Source of the DNA: an uncultured Eubacteriales bacterium
GTDB taxonomy: Bacteria; Bacillota; Clostridia; Christensenellales; Aristaeellaceae
Assembly (NCBI GenBank): GCA_902764875.1
Contig: CACWXP010000001.1
Coordinates: 182,002-246,001, forward strand
Direction of reading: 5' to 3'
DNA: 64,000 nt
How positions within the stretch are numbered: the stretch's first letter is position 1; every line of letters begins with the position of its first letter. Of this stretch, positions 53,819-60,814 are shown in pieces. The translations under genes were made by a program, and so were the position numbers. The notes beneath the pieces were generated by a model. The model searched no databases. It saw only the letters and a list, made by a program, of their open reading frames with translations, and had not been told where the DNA came from.

Positions 53819-54042
53819 AGAAAGCGACCTGTGTTTTAACCATTGATGCCTTTAGGACAGCCGACACCATATAAGCATTCGGGGTTTGCCGCTATACAGC
53901 CCCGCCACTCATCTCTACGGGTTCTGTAGTATGCTGAGGCCTACAGAAAGAGTATAGCAAATTACTATCTGATGCGAAACGGCACCCCGGTTTCATAACC
54001 GCATCGGTGCCTTTCGCAGAAAGGCGGAACATAAGCATGAGT
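53819..54042. other. Gap, nothing supported
   Basis: 224 bp between lysR and the palindromic element; short GGGGTTT and GCGGG stretches but no credible gene. Confidence 0.35.
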
Positions 54043-54160
54043 AAAGGGGCTGTCTCACTAAGCAATGATATGCTCCCTTTTGAGGATACAGAAAAAGAAA
54101 AAACTGTACCTCAGAAGGGAGCATATCAATCTTTTCAGATCATTTTGAGACAGCTCCTTT
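54043..54160. mobile_element. Palindromic MITE-like element with IS1182-type ends
   Basis: Terminal arms AAAGGGGCTGTCTCA (54043-54057) and TGAGACAGCTCCTTT (54146-54160), 14 of 15 paired. Inner arms GATATGCTCCCTTTTGAGG (54067-54085) and the matching half (54109-54127), one mismatch. A short A-rich loop separates them. No coding capacity. The GGGGCTGTCTCA end also begins the transposase locus near 55785, so it is probably a non-autonomous derivative. Confidence 0.7.
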
Positions 54161-54386
54161 TCATTTTTCCGCCGGACCCGGACCATTCTGCCGAACGTCA
54201 GAAACCATCCCGCAGTTCCCAATCCGCGGAACGGGCAGGGCCGTCTCTTGTTCGCTCCCAAATATACAAATTGGCAGAATTTTTTCCGAAATGACTACCA
54301 TCCCTGTACGGTGCTGCGTATATAAAGATGACGGATGCAAACAGCGCCTGCGAAAAAAAAGGCACACAGTGCAGGAGGATAAGAAA

Positions 54387-54614
54387 ATGAAAACGAATGA
54401 AACGGAACTGAACCTGAACCAGATGGGAGAAATCACAGGCGGGACGAACAACAAAAATCCGAACCCCGGCAAGATGGATCCCGGCATCGACGGAATCATC
54501 AACGGAAAGAACTACGATGCGATTGCGCAGTGGATCGCCAACTGGCTCAACGGGGACAACAAAAGATCCCGCAAAGTCAACAATAATGTCGATATTTACG
54601 ACACCGAGATCTGA
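54387..54614 (+). CDS. Double-glycine leader peptide precursor, 75 aa
   Basis: 75 residues, start ATG 54387 after AGGAGGATAAGAAA. MKTNETELNLNQMGEITGGT is a class II bacteriocin-like leader: the pattern L-x-L-x-x-M/L-x-x-I/V-x-GG directs cleavage after GG by a C39-type ABC transporter. The putative core (about 57 residues) is rich in Asn/Lys/Asp, has no Cys, and contains GKNYDAIAQWIANWLNGDNK, an amphipathic stretch with two Trp. It could be a bacteriocin or a signalling peptide. It is the first of three such genes; no immunity, transport or maturation gene is seen in the window. Confidence 0.65.
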   Translation: MKTNETELNLNQMGEITGGTNNKNPNPGKMDPGIDGIINGKNYDAIAQWIANWLNGDNKRSRKVNNNVDIYDTEI

Positions 54615-54643
54615 GCACAGATGCTGAAAGGAGGAAAAAGAGA

Positions 54644-54976
54644 ATGAACACATTCACGATTCTTACCCTGGATGAAATGGCAGAAATTGCCGGAGGCCAT
54701 CCCTTTGAAGAGAAGTTCGCGGATTACGCCCTGTACCGCGCCGGAATCACCTGTGAGGAACACTTCTTCAGTGACGACGAATTCCGGATCGGATCCACGG
54801 GGATCTCCAAGTCCCTTGCGAAGTCCCTGCGGTCGCGCAGTGCGAAGCTGTGGGCGAATTATTCCGCCAGCGGCGACTATGTCGCCTATGCGCGCGTCTG
54901 GAAAGGCATTCTGGCGAATGAATACGGAATTGCCTGGAACGGTGAAATGGGACGCCTGATCGGCTACTGTGACTGA
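54644..54976 (+). CDS. Double-glycine leader protein, 110 aa, paralogue A
   Basis: 110 residues. Leader MNTFTILTLDEMAEIAGG fits the GG consensus. The putative mature part (about 92 residues) contains FADYALYRAGITCEEHFFSD, DEFRIGSTGISKSLAKSLRS and GILANEYGIAWNGEMG, ending GYCD. It aligns by eye with the next gene: GIT(C)...FF.(D/N)DEF...G..IS and YGI(A/Q)WNG..G..(C)D. Two Cys could form a disulfide. AAAGGAGGAAAAAGAG precedes the start. No known family recognised. Confidence 0.7.
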   Translation: MNTFTILTLDEMAEIAGGHPFEEKFADYALYRAGITCEEHFFSDDEFRIGSTGISKSLAKSLRSRSAKLWANYSASGDYVAYARVWKGILANEYGIAWNGEMGRLIGYCD

Positions 54977-55008
54977 TGACCTGAAAAAGAGTGAAAGGAG
55001 GGAAAAAC

Positions 55009-55383
55009 ATGACTGCTTATGCAACTACAAATCAGATGCCGTTCAGCGCAGCAGAGCTGACGCTGGATGAACTGAATCTGGTGACCGGCGGAACCTTCAC
55101 CAGCAACAAATACTCAAAGAGCTTCTATCATGCCTGCGGAATCAGCACATGCTACAATTTCTTCGACAATGACGAGTTTATGTTCATGGGCCAGAAAATC
55201 AGTTATCAGAAGGCAAATGAAATCGCCGATATTGCAAACCGGGTTTACAATGTACTGAATGAGGGAAACCACGGCGCCAATATCATCGGATACGGCGAGG
55301 CTGCCTTTATCCGGGCATTCAACAGCCAGTTGAGGCTGAAATACGGCATCCAGTGGAACGGTGCCCCGGGATGTGACTTTTAA
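55009..55383 (+). CDS. Double-glycine leader protein, 124 aa, paralogue B
   Basis: 124 residues, start ATG 55009 after AAAGGAGGGAAAAAC. Leader ...AAELTLDELNLVTGG, then a core of about 95 residues: SKSFYHACGISTCYNFFDND, EFMFMGQKISYQKANEIADI, AFNSQLRLKYGIQWNGAPGC with DF at the end. It contains three Cys. The shared DDEF/NDEF...IS and YGI-WNG motifs show it is a paralogue of the preceding gene. Closest in design to bacteriocin or peptide-signal precursors. A terminator follows. Confidence 0.7.
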   Translation: MTAYATTNQMPFSAAELTLDELNLVTGGTFTSNKYSKSFYHACGISTCYNFFDNDEFMFMGQKISYQKANEIADIANRVYNVLNEGNHGANIIGYGEAAFIRAFNSQLRLKYGIQWNGAPGCDF

Positions 55384-55440
55384 CCTGCGAATATACACAG
55401 TTGGAGGAACCCGGTTCCGGGGGCCCGGAGCCTGTGCCAA

Positions 55441-55467
55441 AAGCAGCCTTTGCCGGCTGCTTTTTTT
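55441..55467 (+). terminator. Terminator of the GG-leader cluster
   Basis: AAGCAGCC-TTTGCC-GGCTGC followed by seven T. Confidence 0.85.
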
Positions 55468-55470
55468 AAG

Positions 55471-55893
55471 CACCAGAAACCGTAAAGGAATCGGGTGCCT
55501 GCAGTTTCCGTTTCAGCAGTCCTTACCAGTTAATTTCGAGCGAAGTGTCTCTGGACGACTTGCCGCAGTACTCACAGACATAAAATATGGAGGTCTGCTT
55601 CAGGATCAGTAAAATGGGGTCGTGAGATTATATCCCGCTTTTTCCAATCCATAAACTGCCTCAGATATCATCAGAACCAGTTTGTGCCCAAAGTCAAGAT
55701 GCTATCTAGACAGACAAGCCTTTTTTGCCCAAAGAAAAAAGCCAGTTCATCCGAACCAGCTTTTAAATCACCCTACAGTACGAGAGGGGCTATCTCACTG
55801 AGAATGAAGTGAGGCAGTCCTTTTTTATAATAAAAAAACATACCAAAAACACCCGAAACCTTAAAGGAATCGGGCATTTGCGGTATAATGTAG
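55471..55893. other. IS-derived debris between GG cluster and transposase
   Basis: GAAACC(G/T)TAAAGGAATCGGG occurs at about 55477-55498 and again at 55855-55873, just before the transposase. At 55785-55826 a collapsed palindrome AGGGGCTATCTCACT ... AGTGAGGCAGTCCT pairs over an 8-base loop. Around 55740-55766 lies an AAGCCAGTTC/GAACCAGCTT terminator-like hairpin. No full gene is present. Confidence 0.5.
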
Positions 55894-55896
55894 GTG

Positions 55897-56664
55897 ATGA
55901 ATCAAACACTAAACCTGCAGGCCAATTATAGCGCAAATGAGAACGGATATCAACTATGGATTCCGCTGGACTGCAGCATCCAGATTCCCAAGGATGATCC
56001 GGTGAGATTACTCAATGCCGTGGCGGAAAGGATGGATTACAGAGCGATAGAAGCGGCATACTCCAGATATGGGAGAATCGAGTACTCAGCGAAAATCCTC
56101 ACCAAGATCCTGGTCTATGGATATATGAGAGTGATCATATCAACCCGAAAAATCGAACAGGCCTGTAAAGAGAACATCTGTTTCATGTATCTTTTGGAAG
56201 GACGAAAAGCACCGGATCACAATACAATCAGTCGGTTCAGGACAAATATACTGAGCAAAGGTGCCGGGCAGGAGCTGCTGAAACAGTTGATCCAGATGCT
56301 GATCGAAGCGGGATTGATAGATCTGAAAGCGGTATTCATTGACGGAACGAAAATCGAAGCCAACGCAAACAAATACAGCTTCGTATGGAAGAAAGCCCAG
56401 GTCAAAAAGCTGACGAAGCTGAATGAGCGAATCAAGACAGAATTGCCTGATATGTTGGAGAAAGCAGGAATTCATTTTCATGTTCGGGAAACGATGCAGC
56501 TCTGTCATTTGAAAAAGCTCATGAAGCAGTTGAAGGCAAAGGTCAAGGAGACAGAAGCCAAATTCGTATACGGGAAAGGAAAACACAAAAGCGTCCTGCA
56601 AAGGCTGGTTGAGAAGGTTGAGGACTGGATCAGCAAATACAAACAATACATTGCGGATATCTAA
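55897..56664 (+). mobile_element. IS1182-type transposase, N-terminal part
   Basis: 255 residues, then a stop. LWIPLDCSIQIPKDDPVRLL and AYSRYGRIEYSAKILTKILV with YGYMRVIISTRKIEQACKEN are the IS1182 N-terminal domain. MYLLEGRKAPDHNTISRFRT and DLKAVFIDGTKIEANANKYS carry the DDE-family 'DGTKIEANANKY' motif. A full transposase has around 480-550 residues, so the C-terminal half with the final acidic residue is missing: the gene is dead. Start ATG 55897, or GTG 55894. Confidence 0.85.
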
Positions 56665-57142: not shown

Positions 57143-57430
57143 TCAACGGGGGTCCCCACGGCTCGGACAATCCATGTCTGTGCATTCTGTAATAACATGA
57201 TCGTCACAATCACAGCCGCCCCCGGCTGCTGCATCCAGTTTATCGTCGGACATTTCACGTTTTGCGGTCAGCCTCTGCATTTCCTCTTCGGCCAGGGAAA
57301 TGCCGTACTTTTTCAGAACGGACAAGCCTTCCTCAAGCTTGGTAATGCCTTTGAGGTCTTCAACAAACGCTTCCTTTTTGTCTTCCGGTACCTTGGTCAG
57401 CAGGTAATCAATACGTTCTTTGTCGTTCAT
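57143..57430 (-). CDS. Nif11-like leader RiPP precursor, Cys-rich core 1
   Basis: 95 residues. The leader (residues 1-~72), KERIDYLLTKVPEDKKEAFV, KKYGISLAEEEMQRLTAKRE and MSDDKLDAAAGG, has the Nif11-like pattern ending in a double Gly. The core GCDCDDHVITECTDMDCPSR (and GDPR) has four Cys in 24 residues with a charged background. Such precursors are matured by a lanthipeptide synthetase or radical SAM enzyme and cut after GG. No maturation enzyme is seen nearby. The leader differs at only a few positions from its neighbour. The ribosome site is weak (AGAAAG). Confidence 0.75.
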   Translation of the reverse strand: MNDKERIDYLLTKVPEDKKEAFVEDLKGITKLEEGLSVLKKYGISLAEEEMQRLTAKREMSDDKLDAAAGGGCDCDDHVITECTDMDCPSRGDPR

Positions 57431-57494: not shown

Positions 57495-57797
57495 TTAACT
57501 AATAACAGAAGGGCAAAATTCTTCTTCGTATGCATCGCAGTATGCATTGCACACATGGTCATTGCACACATGGTCACTGCAGCAGCCCCCGGCAGCTGCG
57601 TCCAGTTCATCGTCGGACATTTCACGTTTTGCGGTCAGTTTCTTCATTTCCTCTTCGGTCAGGGAAATGCTGTACTTTTTCAGAACGGCTAAGCCTTCCT
57701 CAAGCTTGGAAATGCCTTTTAGGTCTTCAACAAACGCTTCCTTTTTGTCTTCCGGTACTTTGGTCAGCAGGTAGTCAATACGTTCTTTGTCGTTCAT
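57495..57797 (-). CDS. Nif11-like leader RiPP precursor, Cys-rich core 2
   Basis: 100 residues, start ATG 57797 after GGGAGGCAAAAAA. The leader KERIDYLLTKVPEDKKEAFV with KKYSISLTEEEMKKLTAKRE and MSDDELDAAAGG is nearly identical to that of the other copy. The core CCSDHVCNDHVCNAYCDAYE with EEFCPSVIS holds six Cys and a repeated 'DHVCN' unit, so it shares little with core 1. Conserved leader plus variable core is the usual RiPP diversification pattern. The two copies lie in tandem, each with an AGCAGAGGCAGCATCAT-like 3' flank, so they arose by duplication. Confidence 0.8.
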   Translation of the reverse strand: MNDKERIDYLLTKVPEDKKEAFVEDLKGISKLEEGLAVLKKYSISLTEEEMKKLTAKREMSDDELDAAAGGCCSDHVCNDHVCNAYCDAYEEEFCPSVIS

Positions 57798-57897
57798 TTT
57801 TTTGCCTCCCCATATTTTGTTTCCCGGGATGTCCTGCACATCCGATCGTTTATACGAATAAGATAACAGTTTTTGTAACCCAAGTCAACATTTATCA

Positions 57898-58130: not shown

Positions 58131-58508
58131 GTGTTGAAGCATGAGATCATCATCTATGAGGATGCAAGGGGCAGGGCACCATTGCGCGAATACCTGAAGA
58201 AATTGAAGAGCCAGAAAGACGATGATTCGCGGATACGTATTGGCAAAATTCAGGACTATATCTCCCTCCTGCAGGAAAAGGGTACCATGTTGCCAAAACC
58301 TGTTTGCAAGCACTTTTCGGACAAGAAGCATTCGTGGCTGTGGGAACTTCGGCCGGGTGGCGACCGTGTATTATTCTTCGCATGGACTGGTGGCGCGTTC
58401 GTTCTGTTGCATGCATTCAAAAAGAAAAGCCAGAAAACGCCCGACGCAGAACTTCGCAGAGCGGAACGCGAATACAAAGACTGGATAGAAAGGAATGGAG
58501 AAATATGA
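58131..58508 (+). CDS. HigB/Gp49-family RelE-like toxin
   Basis: 125 residues starting at GTG 58131 after AGGAGG. IYEDARGRAPLREYLKKLKS and RIRIGKIQDYISLLQEKGTM with PKPVCKHFSDKKHSWLWELR, then RVLFFAWTGGAFVLLHAFKK and KSQKTPDAELRRAEREYKDW form the PF05973 fold, including the 'LWELRPxxxRVxFFxxxxxxxVLLHxFxKKxxKTPxxEIxxAxxR' pattern. It probably cleaves mRNA on ribosomes. The stop overlaps the antitoxin start (ATGA). Confidence 0.92.
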   Translation: MLKHEIIIYEDARGRAPLREYLKKLKSQKDDDSRIRIGKIQDYISLLQEKGTMLPKPVCKHFSDKKHSWLWELRPGGDRVLFFAWTGGAFVLLHAFKKKSQKTPDAELRRAEREYKDWIERNGEI

Positions 58509-58777
58509 GCAATAAGCATCTGACATGGGATGAACTTGAAGCGGAAATCTTTACTCCGGAGGAAATTGCTGAGAGCCGTGCGCGTGTGGAGATTATTTCC
58601 TCCATCATAGATGCCCGTCAGGCCAAAGGCCTCTCCCAGAAGGAACTGGCTGAGATTACAGGGATTAAACAGCCTGCGATTGCCAGATTGGAGAATGGAC
58701 ATATCAGTCCGAGCGTGGATACAATCAACAGACTTTTGGCCCCTTTGGGAAAACGTCTTGCGGTTGTTGACGCCTGA
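58505..58777 (+). CDS. XRE-family antitoxin (HigA-like)
   Basis: 90 residues. An N-terminal toxin-contact region (WDELEAEIFTPEEIAESRAR) is followed by the HTH LSQKELAEITGIKQPAIARL and ENGHISPSVDTINRLLAPLG, typical of Xre antitoxins encoded after the toxin (HigBA order). It probably represses its own operon through the palindrome at 58091-58108. Confidence 0.92.
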   Translation: MSNKHLTWDELEAEIFTPEEIAESRARVEIISSIIDARQAKGLSQKELAEITGIKQPAIARLENGHISPSVDTINRLLAPLGKRLAVVDA

Positions 58778-58837: not shown

Positions 58838-60784
58838 TCATTTCTTGTAAAATTCGGCCGCAAACCCATCCGCCCGTAGCTCAATCCCCGGCAGCCAGTC
58901 CGGAGTCCGGCCCATAATTTCGCAGGCTTCCTGCAGCTCCGTTTCCCGGGAAACCTCCAGGATCACTTCATCATGCACATGCGCCACAATCCGGTATCTG
59001 TCGTCAAGCCGTATCATTGCGTCGGCCAGCAGATCCCGACAAATCGCCTGGGTGATGTTCTCCACGAACTTCGGGCCGTAACTTTCCACCCGGGTCCAGT
59101 GCTTCTGGGCATCCAGGCCCATGTAGGTCACGCTTTCGCCGCCGAACTGGTTTTCCTCAATCCGGGGCTGGATGTAGGCCATTCTCCGGCCGGAGGGCAG
59201 GGTGATGAACAGCACGTTTCTGCGAAAATCAAACTGCAATTTTCCGACCTTCTGCGGCAGGCGCAGCAGGATGGCATCTTTCACGGCCTTATCCACGGCC
59301 CACCAGTACTGTACGATATTCGGATTCGCTTCCCGCCACATGTCGACCAGGGGCTTCAATTCTTCTTCCGGCACGCCCATACGCACCGCGTCCATCGCCT
59401 TCAAAGCACCGACGCTGCCACCGTAACCCAGGGCAAGTTCGGCCACCTTGCCGCGCTGGCGGAGGTGACCGTTTTCGCCACCTTTGACGACCGGGACGCG
59501 GAACATTCTTGATGCGGATTCGCAGTAGATATCCCGGCCGTTGTGAAAGACGTCGATGCGCCATTTCTCGTCAGCAAGGTAGGAGAGAGCCCGGGCTTCC
59601 ACAGCGGAATAGTCTGCAACGATGAACTTCTGTCCGTCCTCCGGAATGAACGCTGTCCGGATCAATTCAGAAAGCACCTGGGGCACGGAAGGGTAGAGCA
59701 GCTTCAGCATTTCATAGTCACCAGCCTTCACCAGCTCCCGGGCCTGTTCCAGATCCGGAAGATGATTCTGCGGCAGGTTCTGCAACTGGATGAGCCTTCC
59801 GGCCCAGCGGCCGGTGCGGCTGGCACCATAGAATTGAAACAGCCCATGACAGCGGCAGTCGGCGCAAACTGTGTTCTCCATAGCCAGGTATTTTTTGACG
59901 CTGCTTTTCGCAACCTGCAGGCGGAGGGTCAGCACCCGGGCCACATCCTCCGGCACGTTGGGAATCAGATCCGCCGCTTCCTTTTTGCCCAGGCTTTCGA
60001 CGTGGATCCCGTGATCCGCCAGATACTGCTTCAGCTGTGCCACAGAGTTCGGATTCTCGAGCCCGGTCAGCTTTATCAGTTCGGCGGTGAGGTCGTTTCG
60101 GGAAATTTCGTCCATGCGCAGCGCCTGTCGTACCAGCTCCCGATCGATCCGGATGCCGCGGTCGTTGATCCGCTGGTCCAGCCGGTATTCCGCCCAAACT
60201 TTTTCCGGCACCGGGTATTTGCTCAGCCGATCCTGAATGGCCAGTTCGACTTCCACGTCCCGCCTGTTGTATTCCTTGAAGAGTTTCCATTTCTCCGGCG
60301 CATCCTGCGGCCGGTTCCATTTCCGGTCTTTTGTCTGGCTGGGACAGCAGAAGTACCGGATCAGGGCTTTGCCTTCCTTCAGCTTCTGTTCCGAGAATTT
60401 CAGCGCGGCGCCGATCTTCTCCAGCCCGATGGGCAGGCCGTTGTAGGCGCCCCAGACCAGGGTGCATTTCCAGCCGGCGGGATCCAGGTATTCGCCGCTG
60501 AAGATTTCCGGATGATGACGCCGCAGCCAGCGGGAAAGGCAGACCCGCTCGAAGCCGGCGTTATAGGCGCTTTTTTCGACGGCAGGGTTCACCAGTGCCT
60601 GCAGAATCTCCATAGGTACTGTTTCACCGCCGGCCAGATCGTATACACGAACCGGTCCATGATTCAAGGAAACGCCGAACAGCAGGATGTCGAAATCTTC
60701 CGATTCGGCGTACCGGTATACCCCGGATTTGCTGATGTCCGCGCTGCTGCGGGTCTCCAGGTCGATGCTCAGATGTTGTATCAT
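58838..60784 (-). CDS. Phage-type family A DNA polymerase with 3'-5' exonuclease
   Basis: 648 residues. The N-terminal DEDD-type exonuclease shows LSIDLETRSSADISKSG (Exo I) and AYNAGFERVCL (Exo II), and EYNRRDVEVELAI (Exo III). Polymerase motifs follow: A VADYSAVEARALSYLADEKW, B RQRGKVAELALGYGGSVGAL and C AHVHDEVILEV. It resembles the phage/plasmid replication polymerases of Firmicutes, not the ~880-residue cellular Pol I. Start: ATG 60784 after GGAGGTGATTAAT. It points to a phage or mobile-element replication block. Confidence 0.9.
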   Translation of the reverse strand: MIQHLSIDLETRSSADISKSGVYRYAESEDFDILLFGVSLNHGPVRVYDLAGGETVPMEILQALVNPAVEKSAYNAGFERVCLSRWLRRHHPEIFSGEYLDPAGWKCTLVWGAYNGLPIGLEKIGAALKFSEQKLKEGKALIRYFCCPSQTKDRKWNRPQDAPEKWKLFKEYNRRDVEVELAIQDRLSKYPVPEKVWAEYRLDQRINDRGIRIDRELVRQALRMDEISRNDLTAELIKLTGLENPNSVAQLKQYLADHGIHVESLGKKEAADLIPNVPEDVARVLTLRLQVAKSSVKKYLAMENTVCADCRCHGLFQFYGASRTGRWAGRLIQLQNLPQNHLPDLEQARELVKAGDYEMLKLLYPSVPQVLSELIRTAFIPEDGQKFIVADYSAVEARALSYLADEKWRIDVFHNGRDIYCESASRMFRVPVVKGGENGHLRQRGKVAELALGYGGSVGALKAMDAVRMGVPEEELKPLVDMWREANPNIVQYWWAVDKAVKDAILLRLPQKVGKLQFDFRRNVLFITLPSGRRMAYIQPRIEENQFGGESVTYMGLDAQKHWTRVESYGPKFVENITQAICRDLLADAMIRLDDRYRIVAHVHDEVILEVSRETELQEACEIMGRTPDWLPGIELRADGFAAEFYKK

Positions 60785-60814
60785 ATTAATCACCTCCGAG
60801 TAATGAACTTGCTT

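Follow-up and report, generated by a model that had tools for sequence, protein, structure and literature searches.

Three small genes standing in a row in an uncultured member of the Eubacteriales each begin with a double-glycine leader, and the question is whether such a row encodes a bacteriocin or some other kind of exported protein. The genes, here called A, B and C, lie within a window of 64,000 nucleotides (the whole stretch of DNA that was analyzed; Table 1). An earlier note on this DNA had described them as three double-glycine leader proteins forming an operon, the second and third of them a paralogous pair of unrecognized family. Throughout, G000 is the genome of the window, and the other G and L numbers are the other genomes and loci compared.

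The leaders of A, B and C are alike at positions -12 (L), -10 (L), -7 (M or L), -4 (I or V) and -2/-1 (GG); at position -8, A has Q where B and C have E. When the strict pattern L...[EQD][LM]..[IVL].GG was sought in the first 45 residues of the 312 window open reading frames of 50-200 aa, exactly three carried it, namely A, B and C, which confirmed the row with all its motif positions present; shuffled proteins gave a mean of 0.01 matches per round (200 rounds). Judged by these residues, the leaders agree with the consensus that the portion of PMC6363468 available to us states, L(-12)...E(-8)L(-7)...GG. The genes are separated by only 29 nt (A-B) and 32 nt (B-C). The terminator hairpin behind C has a folding energy of -15.2 kcal/mol (z, -2.99; 2 of 200 shuffles equally good) and was absent from the list of a simple terminator scanner. 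With its three AGGAGG sites and one terminator, the row is operon-like, in line with the earlier claim. Since no promoter-like site was found on the plus strand of 53850-55950 (two were found on the opposite strand, 2.1 being expected), we can only infer that A, B and C are co-transcribed.

Table 1. Features of the trio and its surroundings (positions are those of the window).
Feature	Position	Strand	Remarks
Gene A	54387-54614	+	75 aa; 19-residue double-glycine leader, 56-residue core
Gene B	54644-54976	+	110 aa; 18-residue double-glycine leader, 92-residue core
Gene C	55009-55383	+	124 aa; 28-residue double-glycine leader, 96-residue core
Ribosome site of A, AGGAGG	54373..54378	+	sequence ahead of A's ATG
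Ribosome site of B, AGGAGG	54629..54634	+	sequence ahead of B's ATG
Ribosome site of C, AGGAGG	54996..55001	+	sequence ahead of C's ATG
Intrinsic terminator, 10-bp hairpin merging into T-run	55439..55467	+	folding energy vs shuffles
118-bp element, inverted ends (15 nt, 93% complementary) and inner inverted repeat	54043..54160	.	upstream of A
Stretch with transposase frame (DUF772)	55786..56664	+	downstream of cassette
Transposase frame (DUF772)	55894-56664	+	domain match

B and C are paralogues, with 29% identity over 106 positions (E 3e-11), as had been proposed, and both possess YGI(A/Q)WNG and D(D/N)EF. The longer shared motif given earlier, DDEF/NDEF...G..IS, held in part: the stretch from DEF to IS is six residues in both proteins, and the glycine is differently placed. 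The two share a core motif that can be written GI-x9-DEF-x6-IS. Of the core lengths of about 92-95 residues stated earlier, that of B stands, while that of C needed a slight correction (Table 1).

To these sequences could be added homologues from related genomes, giving eight A, nine B and nine C proteins. The residues invariant in A are G18, G19, N22, N24, D35, I38, N39, G40, N42, Y43 and A45, followed by A47, Q48, I50, A51, L54, R60, R62, N66, D69, I70, D72 and I75. Those of B, counted from G17, are G17, G18, P20, E22, D27, L30, R32, A33, G34, F42 and D45 in its first part, I54, K56, A59, L62, R63, S66, W70, Y73 and D78 in its middle part, and Y82, R84, W86, K87, L90, Y94, W98, G100 and G103 in its last. 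Those of C, counted from G28, are G28, F30, N33, Y35, Y40, G44, I45, S46, T47 and Y49, then D55, E56, F57, M60, G61, I64, A69, N70, I72 and A76, and finally N84, G86, F100, N105, S106, Q107, W116, G118, G121 and F124. The cores are better conserved than the leaders: mean pairwise identity of core and leader was 0.61 and 0.32 for A, 0.59 and 0.41 for B, and 0.61 and 0.41 for C, the leader figures taking in the variable N-terminal tails. pN was below pS in every pair of cores (28/28 for A, 36/36 for B and 36/36 for C, 100/100 in all), with some distant pairs near saturation; one very close A pair (G055/G082) had an omega of 0.98.

Searches of Pfam, NCBIfam and PADLOC with A, B and C returned only sub-threshold or noise matches, PHROG gave none, and the best PDB profile matches had E values of 0.32 (B/C alignment) and 0.15 (A alignment), so that the cores fall outside these libraries, in line with the earlier note. 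No relative was found among viral contigs (alignment of C) or among phages and plasmids (C of G054), a contig scan with B alone gave no match, and in the literature searches made here no paper was recognized as describing A, B or C. By these searches the trio adds two new families of proteins and, in its entirety, a set of three parts.

Two of the weak matches bear on what the proteins might do. In PADLOC, C matched Drt3b (E 0.0064, 13.1 bits) over 60 of 651 positions, and this might be taken to mean that the trio consists of anti-phage or other intracellular proteins, in which the GG stretch would play no part in export, a reading to which the replacement of GG by AG in three of nine C proteins (G055, G082 and G142) would also lend itself. 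The matched stretch is, however, short for so long a model and lies partly in the leader, and is probably noise; moreover, GG is retained behind a hydrophobic -12 residue in 8/8 A, 9/9 B and 6/9 C proteins. We therefore consider an intracellular role improbable. Given the AG endings, and the T or E that the B and C proteins of both G055 and G082 carry at position -7, some homologues may escape cleavage. In NCBIfam, C matched BlpC weakly (E 0.13) and within the leader only. Since pheromones also use double-glycine leaders, the trio could be thought of as secreted signals, small proteins that diffuse and are sensed by the producing cell or by its kin; but with cores of 56-96 residues, three of them per operon, and no receptor-like gene common to the loci, this appears very unlikely.

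To learn how far the trio extends, profiles were searched against genomes of the same family. With a profile of B and C, matches came from 13 of 300 family genomes, and with a wider profile from 21 of 308 at E <= 0.01; full-length B and C proteins were present in 7 of 308 (G000, G006, G009, G054, G055, G082 and G142). The A profile gave ten matches in the 308 genomes, seven strong (E <= 1.8e-35) and three weak (E 0.002-0.004), two of the weak ones being other double-glycine proteins. The seven genomes with a strong A match are the same seven that carry full-length B and C. Because A genes lying beside B or C supplied the A profile, the informative part of this result is the other 301 genomes, which have neither a strong A match nor full-length B or C. 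A, B and C thus belong together: where a pair plus one further leader protein had been described, the pair stands, and A also accompanies B and C in every genome found. They are contiguous and in this order at six loci (the window, L033, L034, L036, L037 and L072). In G009, A and one C lie together and a second C and B are on two other contigs (three loci), and G006 has two B genes at a distance of 3 kb from A and C, across a stretch of unresolved sequence. An alignment of C found eight loci in seven genomes, all metagenome-assembled Clostridia, with annotations that include sheep rumen, sheep jejunum and Christensenella sp. (once each); L072 represents an eighth trio genome, outside the G set. 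Within the genus of the window, a strong match was confined to G000, which shows that the distribution of the trio is patchy.

Beyond the full-length proteins, shorter B/C kin with a motif like DKDEFWWNGENIG occur in G055, G099 and G169, and another kind in G219. Of 15 loci with weak A or B/C matches that were inspected, 12 hold a frame with a double-glycine leader and a different core. Several candidates were set aside: the B/C-profile matches of G228 and G272 are double-glycine proteins of other kinds, that of G269 looks like chance, and in G000 itself one match (contig C6) lies inside a 447-residue frame. A further match in G000 (contig C2) has an E value of 0.72. In a sample of 391 genomes of the class, a B/C profile matched five genomes at E <= 0.01 and the wider profile eight. 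The convincing relatives besides G000 are four double-glycine proteins from two genomes of one other family (G357 and G384), which possess W..(I/V)GI.CVT followed by N.Y(Y/F)..G..I....A; one of the four was itself in the profile. The matches of the other five are weak (E >= 0.0018) and fall within frames of 491-848 aa. The B/C motif is also seen in shorter double-glycine proteins of other genera and in double-glycine proteins of another family of the class. Two loci visited in this survey contain further frames, recognized by eye: a radical-SAM-like frame on the minus strand (L035:5105-6160), 3.6 kb from short B/C kin, and, at L099:18418-18840, CRISPR-array-like repeats encoding FQSTRPTRGET units beside a cas-like frame.

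Next, we turned to the exporter that such leaders call for. The earlier note had taken the absence of GG-dependent exporters from all genomes with homologues as the outcome that would tell against it. This outcome did not occur: a C39 peptidase was found in 11 of the 13 B/C-profile genomes and in 8/8 of those at least 90% complete, the domain not being found in G142 (a trio genome, 59% complete) or G269. The exporter is, however, not where it had been expected. Six of the seven trio genomes have a C39 exporter, and in those six it is never on the contigs of the trio; in G000, the sole C39 domain found is on contig C7, and the trio is on another. The ABC protein of this exporter matched TIGR03796 with 902 bits (cut-off, 853), the second ABC subunit matched TIGR03797 just under the cut-off (708.7 bits vs 709.4), and the accessory protein gave a weak HlyD-like match (22.6 bits vs 156.2). 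By these model matches the exporter is of the NHLM/NHLP type, the TIGR03794/03796/03797 system of Haft et al. 2010 (PMC2887384, in the part accessible to us). Of the 130 family genomes with a completeness of at least 90%, 59 had TIGR03796 over its cut-off, and these include all six trio genomes of that completeness (hypergeometric P of 0.0076, not corrected for relatedness). The exporter is thus unlinked to the trio, and many family members have it whether or not they carry the trio. Taken together, the leader pattern (hydrophobic residues at -12, -7 and -4, with GG, GA or GS allowed at -2/-1) and the C39 exporter in G000 mark the trio as putative C39 exporter substrates, predicted to be cut after GG and secreted.

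The surroundings of the trio were then compared between loci. Neighboring genes were compared with one another, using frames of at least 60 aa and E <= 1e-5, and L036 was omitted as syntenic with L034. The frames shared among the resulting seven loci were A, B and C, their antisense shadows, a kin gene of L072 and one gene, with shadows, which we take to be seryl-tRNA-synthetase-like and which is common to L034 and L038 only. In a set of 14 loci, a few extra frames were common to two or three loci each, unrelated to the position of the cassette; G055 and G082 have a whole syntenic region in common. No exporter or other partner gene common to the cassette loci was found, and the immunity genes expected earlier were not seen either, no small gene being common beside the cassettes.

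There is little in the composition of the locus to set it apart: the cassette has a G+C content of 50.4% (window, 55.7%), but 60 of 316 equally long stretches have a lower value, which makes it a poor indicator of mobility. The 118-bp element upstream of A is a possible relic of an insertion element, and by eye one of its ends resembles the start of the stretch that holds the downstream transposase frame. That frame seems to stop early for a DUF772 transposase. In an empty-site comparison, the closest match to the upstream LysR gene in 40 other genomes of the genus was 52%. Farther downstream lie two tandem Nif11-type precursors on the minus strand (57143-57430 and 57495-57839; TIGR03798, 29.6 and 32.8 bits, cut-off 32.3). 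Both have Cys-containing cores after GG; like the trio, from which they are some 2 kb distant, they do not lie near the exporter. They are followed by a toxin-antitoxin-like gene pair near 58131-58777 and a family A DNA polymerase of 651 aa (58838-60793, minus strand; PF00476) that is phage-type by eye; the pair and the polymerase possibly mark a prophage edge.

The reading that the row most readily suggests is a multicomponent class II bacteriocin, in which the three proteins would jointly attack neighboring bacteria and immunity would be encoded elsewhere. The trio resembles two- and multipeptide bacteriocins in its consecutive small genes and its short GG leader of the Bacteriocin_IIc/ComC kind. 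Bacteriocin_IIc is the best Pfam match of B, through the leader (13.2 bits vs a cut-off of 27.1), and touches 4 of 19 B/C proteins, all below the cut-off. The patchy spread over 7 of 308 family genomes would also suit a bacteriocin, and L114, a further double-glycine protein found in the family, resembles a bacteriocin (Bacteriocin_IIc at 17.8 bits, under the cut-off of 27.1). The cores, however, point elsewhere. Class II bacteriocin cores are typically cationic. Here, the net charge is below zero in 25 of 26 cores and positive in one, most being acidic or near neutral, and all 26 are hydrophilic: GRAVY ranges from -0.33 to -1.09, and no stretch of 19 residues exceeds a hydropathy of 1.15. The cores of A have masses of 5.9-6.5 kDa, and those of B and C, at 10.3-12.3 kDa, exceed the limit of <10 kDa stated for class II bacteriocins in the available part of PMC13289728. 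Conservation of the cores, trio contigs without an exporter and, in the mutual comparison of neighbors, no shared gene fit for immunity add to the differences; all three proteins also carry export leaders, so none resembles a cytoplasmic immunity protein. The likeness to class II bacteriocins implied by the earlier note is therefore not upheld: none of the family matches exceeds its cut-off, the cores as a group are not both small and cationic, and the comparison of loci showed no immunity or export genes in the cluster. We regard a bacteriocin as unlikely.

The type of exporter raises a further alternative, namely that A, B and C are RiPP precursors and, as would the two Nif11-type precursors nearby, supply the NHLM exporter with modified peptides. 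NHLM exporters are tied to such precursors in what we could consult of PMC2887384, and the trio has in common with NHLP/Nif11 precursors an exporter of this type in the genome and a GG cleavage motif. Unlike the NHLP/Nif11 families, whose cores are short and hypervariable according to the same portion of PMC2887384, the trio has long, conserved cores behind short classical GG leaders. NHLP and Nif11 models gave no NCBIfam match to A, B or C at E <= 1, so that the leader domain as well as the hypervariable core is missing, and no modification gene is common to the cassette loci, the radical-SAM-like frame of L035 not being shared. We hold this alternative to be highly improbable.

What else the leader is used for was explored with a profile of 15 leaders, including those of the trio, which in G000 matched 14 places on 11 contigs at E <= 10, 12 of them at E <= 0.005. 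Beside the trio, eight small double-glycine proteins of 78-123 aa could be read out (L150, L151 and L155-L160); L162, with AG in place of GG, is a weaker candidate, and the match L163 looks like chance. Five of these nine contain LysM over the Pfam gathering score (L150, L155, L156, L157 and L160, orphans on five contigs), and four are without a match. The same leader precedes LysM proteins and an SH3_3 protein in other genomes of the family. LysM proteins are an unexpected cargo for a C39 exporter. Since eight other double-glycine proteins are present and LysM occurs in five, the leader is probably the mark of a general route of small-protein export and not of bacteriocins as such. The orphan LysM and SH3 proteins share with the trio the leader and the availability of the same exporter; unlike the trio, they are scattered single genes with recognized domains.

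A closer likeness to the trio is offered by the EbfG proteins of Synechococcus elongatus. In the text of PMC4997328 open to us, EbfG1-4 are co-transcribed double-glycine proteins on which biofilm depends and whose secretion is aided by the C39 transporter PteB; their cores measure 6-7 kDa, and other cyanobacteria lack homologues of them. EbfG4 is at the cell surface and EbfG1-3 form amyloid (PMC9981879, as far as available). Both sets are rows of small double-glycine proteins, and the need for a C39 peptidase transporter and the joint action outside the cell, known for EbfG, are predicted for the trio; EbfG proteins are not bacteriocins. Unlike the EbfG proteins, the trio has cores of 56-96 residues that are conserved over genera, and the two are likened by their way of working, not by homology.

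With this comparison in mind, we give about even chances to A, B and C being one secreted three-part set that acts at the cell surface or outside the cell. The three proteins would be translated from one message, and their double-glycine leaders would be recognized in trans by the NHLM/NHLP-type C39 exporter on another contig. The precursors would then be cut after GG and released as soluble proteins of 56, 92 and 96 residues. Outside the cell they may act jointly, the likeliest form being a complex, extracellular or associated with the wall, or a component of the producer's matrix, in a role more like that of the EbfG proteins than that of a membrane-permeating bacteriocin. The case for a surface role would draw on the EbfG analogy and on the weakening of the other readings.

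More tentatively, and with somewhat less than even confidence, the trio may be a three-protein extracellular machine absent from the literature searched, made up of the paralogous B and C and the small partner A and delivered in trans by an NHLM exporter that in these Clostridia is now a general route for folded small proteins, LysM wall-binders included. If so, a larger superfamily of secreted proteins would have the B/C motif as its core. Genes with double-glycine leaders are readily mistaken for bacteriocins, and here one genome combines a single C39 exporter, as far as found, with at least 11 double-glycine proteins (the trio and eight others), LysM being present in five of them. Should all of these be carried by that exporter, NHLM would serve these Clostridia as a general secretion system for small proteins, and the leader alone should not be read as the mark of a bacteriocin.
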